Source of the DNA: Thermoanaerobaculia bacterium
Lineage (GTDB): Bacteria > Acidobacteriota > Thermoanaerobaculia > UBA5066
Assembly (NCBI GenBank): GCA_022071945.1
Contig: JAJVIN010000029.1
Span: 188,390-252,389 of the forward strand
Length of the DNA stretch: 64,000 nucleotides
Direction: 5' to 3'
Shown: piece by piece, positions 28,698-30,271 of the stretch
Position numbering within the stretch: position 1 is the stretch's first letter
Layout of the letters: every line of letters begins with the position of its first letter
The notes under the pieces: generated by a model
Database searches by the model: none
The model's input: the letters and a program-made list of their open reading frames with translations, nothing else
What the model was told of the DNA's origin: nothing
Program-made: the position numbers and the translations under genes

Positions 28698-29051
28698 TCA
28701 GAAGACCATGACGGACGCCGCCTCCTGCGTCCATTCAGCCAGCAAGTCCATGGAGCCCTGCACGACGCCGTCGATCATCTGCTCGGGCCCGATCCCGCGG
28801 GCCCTGGCGCACGACGTTCACGTCGCGGCGGCGCCCCGGGACGCGATCGACTTCAGCATCCGCTCGACGTTGTAATAGCCCTGAGGCGTCTCCTGGCCCC
28901 GGACGGCGCACTGGACCGCGTCGGCGAGGAGAAAGACCCGGACGGCCGTGTCGGGGCGCTTGAGGAGCGCGAGCGCCCAGCGAAGGGCGTTGTAGGAGCG
29001 CTCGGTGCCATAGGGACCGTCGTTGAGGACGAAGAGGTGCGAGTGAGCCAT
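28698..29051 (-). CDS. DsrE-family protein with probable selenocysteine (UGA at codon 78)
   Basis: 117 codons plus stop if UGA at 28820-28818 is read through. Residues 1-77 are a clear DsrE-type small sulfur-relay fold (FVLNDGPYGTERSYNALRWALALL, AVRVFLLADAVQCA, GYYNVERMLKSI). After the UGA the same frame continues with TSCARARGIGPEQMIDG and ends in ASVMVF, the expected C-terminal half of the family. The UGA falls where homologues that I recall have the first Cys of a CGTC motif followed by ARG. This gives U-T-S-C. A hairpin with SECIS-like geometry follows the UGA. GAGGAGGT precedes the ATG at 29051. The alternative is a Cys-to-stop mutation and a dead gene. Confidence 0.68.
28785..28804 (-). 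promoter_or_regulatory. Candidate bacterial SECIS element
   Basis: Minus-strand hairpin with a 6-bp stem GGGCCC/GGGCCC (28804-28799 and 28790-28785) and an 8-nt loop GCGGGATC. The loop starts 19 nt after the UGA and its first base is G. Bacterial SECIS elements typically have the loop about 16-37 nt downstream, with a G in its first two positions. GC-rich hairpins are common here, so the match is suggestive only. Confidence 0.5.
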
Positions 29052-29116
29052 GAGCAAGACCTCCTCAGCTCGAAATGGGCCGGTCGAGTCTACCAAGCTG
29101 CGGGACGGCGCGGCCG

Positions 29117-29260
29117 CTACCCTTGGCCTTCGCTCTCGGTTCACCGATGGCATCGGCCGGTGTCCGTGAAGGGGAACCGGTCGTCGACCTCGGCTCGGGT
29201 GCGGGCATTGACGTCTTCATCACGGCGAAGCTCGCCGGCGCATCCGGCAAGGCGATCGGC
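29117..29260 (+). pseudogene. Fragment of an arsenite methyltransferase (ArsM-like)
   Basis: About 48 codons read as the SAM-binding core of ArsM-type methyltransferases: LGSPMASAGVREGEP, then VVDLGSGAGIDVFITAKLAG and GASGKAIG. Both the N-terminal region and everything after motif I are missing, and the frame continues into unrelated sequence. It has no ribosome site and starts 66 bp beyond the DsrE start on the other strand. Confidence 0.55.
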
Positions 29261-29350: not shown

Positions 29351-29599
29351 TCAGCGCGAAGCGCGACGGGCAGCCAGTATTCCCGCGACGAGTTCTTCCG
29401 GAACGTCGTCCGGAACCGGAGCATCGAGGCCGGAAAACGCCGAGTGGCCCATCTCGATCGTCGTCCTGTAGGAATCGAGGTAGGCGCGGCACGAGCGGCA
29501 CATCGACAGATGGCGATCGAACGTCTTTCGTTCCTCTTGCGAGAGGTCGTCCTCGACGTACCGCCCGAGGAACTCGGTCAGCTCGCGGCACGTGATCAT
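29351..29599 (-). CDS. Zinc-finger anti-sigma factor-like protein (copy A)
   Basis: 82 aa. Starts MITCRELTEFLGRYV and carries the HLSMCRSC zinc motif of putative zinc-finger anti-sigma domains. It is clearly paralogous to the + strand protein at 30014-30271 (shared TCRE, ERxxFDxHL, CRAYLxSYR-type, VPDxVPE and LAAR). No transmembrane segment is seen. It stands head-to-head with a truncated sigma gene instead of following an intact one. The start is uncertain because ATGs at 29632, 29617 and 29599 all lack a good ribosome site. Confidence 0.65.
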   Translation of the reverse strand: MITCRELTEFLGRYVEDDLSQEERKTFDRHLSMCRSCRAYLDSYRTTIEMGHSAFSGLDAPVPDDVPEELVAGILAARRASR

Positions 29600-29606
29600 C
29601 GGGCCC

Positions 29607-30017
29607 ATGAAAACGTCCATTACGGCGCGCATTGCCGCGACCTGGCTTCACCGGATCGTGGTGAACGCGTGCCTGATGAAACTCCGCTCGCGCAAGCACA
29701 GGCCGGAGGAATCGATCGAGCCACTGCTCCCGGCTTTCGACGAACTCGAAAACCGCACGGCGCCCGTGGCCCCGTGGTCGAGCATTGACGACCAGCTGGA
29801 GCAAAAGCAGGTCGCGGCGCGAGTCCGCGAGTCGATCCACCGCCTGCCGGAGAGCTACCGGACCGTTCTTCTTCTTCGGGACATCGAGGAACTCGACACG
29901 GTGAAGACCGCCGAGGCGCTCGGCATCTCCGAGAACGCCGTGAAGGTCCGTCTGCACCGGGCGCGTCAGGCTCTCCGGACCCTTCTCGATCCGGCGATGC
30001 GAACGGGGGCCAGATGA
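29607..30017 (+). pseudogene. ECF sigma factor lacking its N-terminal region 2
   Basis: The frame begins abruptly at MKTSITARIAATWLHRIVVNACLMKLR. WLHRIVVNACLMKLR is the end of sigma region 2. The linker and region 4 are intact (SIHRLPESYRTVLLLRDIEELDTVKTAEALGISENAVKVRLHRARQAL). The ~60-70 residues of regions 2.1-2.3 needed for core binding and -10 recognition are absent. The sequence upstream is the antisense anti-sigma copy A. Its stop overlaps the following anti-sigma ATG (ATGA), showing that the 3' part of an operon survived a rearrangement. Confidence 0.75.
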
Positions 30018-30271
30018 GCGTGCCCCTCACCTGCCGTGAAGTCGTCGATTTCCTGTGGCGCTACGAGGAGAACGAGCTGACGCCGGCGGAGCGGGCCTCG
30101 TTCGACGCCCACCTCGCCGCTTGCCCCTGCTGCGGCGCCTACCTCGAGAGCTACCGGGAGACCGCCGCCCTGGCGCGAGACGCGTTCGACGACCTCGAGG
30201 CCCCCGTGCCGGATTCGGTCCCGGAAGATCTCGTGAGGGCGATCCTCGCCGCTCGCGGGTCTGGCGGCTGA
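30014..30271 (+). CDS. Zinc-finger anti-sigma factor-like protein (copy B)
   Basis: 85 aa. Begins MSVPLTCREVVDFLWRY and contains the zinc-binding HLAACPCCGAYLESYRE segment. There is no membrane helix. Related to copy A at 29351-29599 over its full length. The ATG overlaps the stop of the truncated sigma gene (ATGA), the normal sigma/anti-sigma coupling. With its sigma partner broken it may be an orphan. Confidence 0.75.
   Translation: MSVPLTCREVVDFLWRYEENELTPAERASFDAHLAACPCCGAYLESYRETAALARDAFDDLEAPVPDSVPEDLVRAILAARGSGG

Follow-up and report, generated by a model that had tools for sequence, protein, structure and literature searches.

The 64,000-nucleotide stretch of DNA analysed here (the window) carries a gene of the DsrE/DsrF family (YchN-like; 28698..29051, minus strand) that very probably, at about 93% by our estimate from sequence comparison, encodes a genuine selenoprotein with selenocysteine (Sec) inserted at an in-frame UGA. 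A conserved UGA/Cys codon, the Sec machinery of the genome and a hairpin kept in the Sec forms together favour this reading over a pseudogene. The gene runs from an ATG at 29051-29049 to a terminal TGA at 28700-28698 (minus strand) and specifies 117 residues, of which number 78, the predicted Sec, opens a UxxC motif (codon at 28818..28820, minus strand; translation ...GAAATUTSCARARGIGPEQ...VMVF). A Shine-Dalgarno sequence, GAGGAGG, was read directly from the DNA at 29060..29066 (minus strand), 8 nt ahead of the ATG. The coordinates that the original prediction had given for the gene and for the UGA (28820-28818) proved exact, and the ribosome site is indeed as strong as it had described.

Scanning 84,980 species genomes for homologues yielded 80 loci, and at every one of them the codon corresponding to the UGA was either TGA or Cys; a few rows had a pairwise alignment that was off by one or two codons, and there the motif gave the same TGA/Cys state. 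Across 90 homologues this codon reads UGA in 24 and Cys in 66, the alternation of Sec and Cys expected of a selenoprotein gene, and other in-frame stops are absent. The UGA sits exactly on the first Cys of the family CxxC, producing the motif UTSC (U78-T-S-C81), as had been predicted. Aligning Cys homologues across the UGA, which had been proposed as a check, returned relatives with either UGA or Cys at that codon and no random stops or frameshifts. Within the same class, three relatives have a single in-frame TGA at the same codon and nine others have Cys, and a second DsrE copy in the window's own genome (contig 54) also carries Cys there. The encoded protein is 57-65% identical to Sec orthologues, and comparison of the gene with its orthologue at locus L043 gave a dN/dS of ~0.30 (dS ~0.97), indicating that the protein is under purifying selection.

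These data bear directly on the possibility that translation really ends at the UGA, owing to a recent nonsense mutation in a gene that is now decaying. Two features of the surroundings could be taken in its favour. The opposite strand carries, immediately upstream of the DsrE gene, an arsenite methyltransferase (arsM-like) fragment (29120-29260, plus strand) of 46 residues, matching positions 62-107 of 272 of NF008823, which is apparently a gene remnant; and the sulfur genes that neighbour the relatives are absent around the DsrE gene in the window. Taken together, the missing sulfur genes and the adjoining broken fragment make it conceivable that this is an orphan gene under relaxed use. However, 24 homologues spanning Acidobacteriota, Chloroflexota, Bacillota, Actinomycetota, Armatimonadota and KSB1 share the UGA at this codon, in frames that are otherwise open, and the low dN/dS and the retention of the hairpin described below also speak against decay. 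A pseudogene is therefore very improbable, in line with the earlier judgement that the gene is not a decaying one.

Further support for a selenoprotein comes from the domain match of the readthrough product, which, when the UGA is translated as Cys, covers the whole Pfam DsrE domain (PF02635; profile 4-116 of 116) at 65.9 bits (E 4.5e-18), compared with a gathering score of 22.7 bits. The portion that precedes the UGA reaches 37.6 bits by itself, so that more than 40% of the family signal falls past the UGA, and family homology thus carries on in frame across it, as had been claimed. A 77-residue protein stopping at the UGA, followed by a stretch that is open by chance, would still match DsrE with those 37.6 bits, and long frames often arise by chance in DNA as GC-rich as that of the window, as they also do when further UGA-readthrough frames are listed. 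Nevertheless, this share of the domain score past the UGA, the conservation of the residues that follow it up to the C-terminal end, and the presence elsewhere of Cys in its place make such a truncated product extremely improbable.

A bacterial SECIS-like hairpin lies inside the coding sequence, past the UGA (28785..28804, minus strand). Bacterial SECIS elements as a rule present their loop roughly 16-37 nt past the UGA and have a G among the first two bases of that loop. As first read, the hairpin is GGGCCC-GCGGGATC-GGGCCC, with a 6-bp stem and a loop starting 19 nt past the UGA; folding adds one G-C pair, resulting in a 7-bp stem (GGGCCCG and CGGGCCC) and the 6-nt loop CGGGAT. With either loop, at 19-20 nt past the UGA, the element agrees with the rule, so the predicted hairpin stands with a stem one pair longer. 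It outscores 98.8% of synonymous-codon shuffles, and the p-values of such shuffles for single sequences are moderate, with a median of 0.04. All Sec forms have a stem of 5-11 bp, a loop starting 18-21 nt past the UGA and a G within the first two loop bases. The mean stem score was 19.4 in Sec forms vs 11.0 in Cys forms (Mann-Whitney p = 8e-13, a value that counts kin sequences as independent and so overstates the case, the contrast itself being plain), and the mean folding energy of the same stretch was -13.3 vs -8.1 kcal/mol, respectively.

Because the stem register differs between clades, paired cells and covariation were counted clade by clade, and not on one alignment across the Sec forms. 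Of the cells in the window's clade, 92% are paired, and two pairs (G-C, A-U) have changed on both sides; in the Actinomycetota clade 97% are paired, with one C-G/U-A exchange. Most pairs are invariant, and the covariation seen in either clade is modest, its level being reached in 13/500 and 21/500 shuffles. The stems of the two clades are offset by 2 nt and are unlike in sequence (GGGCCCG vs GGACGCC), which points to selection for the hairpin beyond that on the peptide alone. The Sec form from KSB1 has a different 8-bp stem, GCGATACC/GGTATCGC, and the Sec forms L082, L067 and L090 (KSB1, Armatimonadota and Dehalococcoidia) each have their own hairpin register. Examination of relatives for covariation, another of the checks that had been suggested, thus showed that all Sec orthologues retain the hairpin and that some of the substitutions in it are compensatory. 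An Rfam scan of the 64-kb window found no family at gathering score, a negative that carries no weight against the hairpin because SECIS elements in bacteria are too variable to form one family.

The genome to which the window belongs (6.17 Mb, 96% complete) contains the complete set of genes required of a Sec-decoding organism, selA, selB, selC and selD, for which a search had also been proposed. Matches above the cut-offs were obtained for selA (433 bits), selB (299 bits, or 325 with a neighbouring match) and two selD genes, and selC is present as a tRNA-Sec with anticodon TCA (64 bits). One of the selD genes (L011, contig 37) itself contains a UGA, which falls in the active site (AAGUACKLGQADL) at the known Sec position of SelD. 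The other SelD locus, L010 (G000 contig 7, 179145-180071), encodes a Cys-form SelD that, as read by eye, is fused to a NifS-like cysteine desulfurase. With SelA, SelB, tRNA-Sec and two SelD, the organism is equipped to make selenoproteins. Across genomes, selA was detected in 20 of the 21 with Sec forms vs 22 of the 32 with Cys forms only (Fisher p = 0.035); the one Sec-form MAG in which it was not detected (G156) is perhaps incomplete. Decoding of the UGA as Trp or Cys by recoding or suppression has nothing specific in its favour apart from the conserved Cys of homologues, which formally fits Cys incorporation, and it merits hardly any weight given that the genome has the full Sec apparatus, including tRNA-Sec(TCA) and a Sec-type selD, that strong hairpins mark the UGA forms and that UGA is also the terminal stop of the same DsrE gene.

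Accepting the UGA as a Sec codon, a tree of the 90 rows, built on few columns, requires at least 4 changes of state to account for the 24 Sec rows. The window protein groups in a Sec clade of Acidobacteriota, Chloroflexota and Bacillota sequences (support 87/95), the second main Sec clade belongs to Actinomycetota (support 100/100), and single Sec rows from KSB1, Dehalococcoidia and Armatimonadota fall outside both. These last three may represent further independent Cys/Sec changes; on a tree of so few columns, one origin of the Sec forms is formally possible as well.

Selenoproteins of the DsrE-like UxxC kind are on record from the Sargasso Sea (2005; PMC1088965), in agreement with the statement in the original prediction that they come from metagenome surveys, and from Desulfovibrio vulgaris (2006; PMC1794560), so the window protein adds to a family already described. 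They are also listed in reviews from 2022 (PMC9312934) and 2026 (PMC13188914), the latter stating that the functions of such selenoproteins are largely uncharacterised. Searching the literature for DsrE selenoproteins in Acidobacteriota, and for YchN together with DsrE, turned up nothing past these papers. The likeness of the window protein to the published members (WP_014524487.1, AACY01486889) was judged on family and motif: like them, it is a PF02635 protein with an in-frame UGA, a UxxC motif (here UTSC) with Sec first and a downstream SECIS. Unlike them, it comes from Acidobacteriota, and the Sec members found here form at least two separate clades across several phyla. The closest solved structure is E. 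coli YchN (PDB 1JX7; full-length family-profile match, E 1.9e-25), which shares the single-domain DsrE fold and a CxxC whose first Cys occupies the Sec position, but carries Cys there and not Sec. TusD/DsrE (TIGR03012) belongs to the same superfamily, and the similarity of the window protein to TusD is real, yet at 35 bits it lies far below the 89.25-bit cut-off for that equivalog. No TusC/TusB or DsrF/DsrH partners were present among the neighbours examined, and no dedicated DsrE selenoprotein model was matched in NCBIfam.

In the window, the DsrE gene is followed downstream on the minus strand by a gene for an ECF sigma factor, then by an overlapping frame that matches no family, and then by a gene for a DsbH/DUF255 protein. 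A further ECF sigma factor frame (29592-30017, plus strand), whose N-terminal region is apparently missing, is followed by a zinc-finger anti-sigma factor (30014-30271). PADLOC returned no match. At other Sec loci, an FAD oxidoreductase of the Pyr_redox_2 family lies near the DsrE gene in 17 of 27 cases, one representative of which gave a weak match to flavocytochrome c sulfide dehydrogenase, and ArsR regulators and cysteine desulfurases are recurrent neighbours, with ArsR fused to rhodanese at L043. The Cys-form DsrE paralogue of the window's own genome (L029:1495-1848) directly follows a gene with an ArsR-like N-terminus, as read by eye.

Insertion of Sec would follow the binding of SelB, GTP and Sec-tRNA(Sec) to the mRNA hairpin just 3' of the UGA, and the product, with Sec at residue 78, would be a DsrE/YchN-like protein of one domain that bears the motif U-T-S-C. 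In DsrE and TusD, the first, conserved Cys carries the persulfide as acceptor, and a selenol at this position, by analogy, would surpass it both as a nucleophile and as a leaving group. In the handling of sulfane sulfur, the selenol would most likely accept and donate persulfide (or selenyl-sulfide) or serve as a thiol-redox centre, and Cys81 would resolve the intermediate. The association of Sec loci with ArsR(-rhodanese), the sulfide-dehydrogenase-like FAD oxidoreductase and cysteine desulfurases makes a persulfide-relay or redox role the most likely one, and we somewhat favour a part in sulfur relay. A broader proposal is doubtful at present: that Cys and Sec were exchanged independently at least twice (in Acidobacteriota/Chloroflexota/Bacillota and, with another hairpin register, in Actinomycetota) within an ArsR(-rhodanese)/sulfide-oxidoreductase-like/DsrE neighbourhood, marking out a selenium-dependent branch of sulfane-sulfur handling that has yet to be recognised as one.

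Standard annotation will cut this gene short at the UGA or overlook it; read correctly, it provides an Acidobacteriota member for the DsrE-like selenoprotein family. Linkage with ArsR or ArsR-rhodanese and with a sulfide-dehydrogenase-like flavoprotein gives the family a concrete hypothesis, that of a persulfide relay, and the Cys paralogue beside an ArsR-like regulator gene in the same genome offers a natural comparison for the Sec form.
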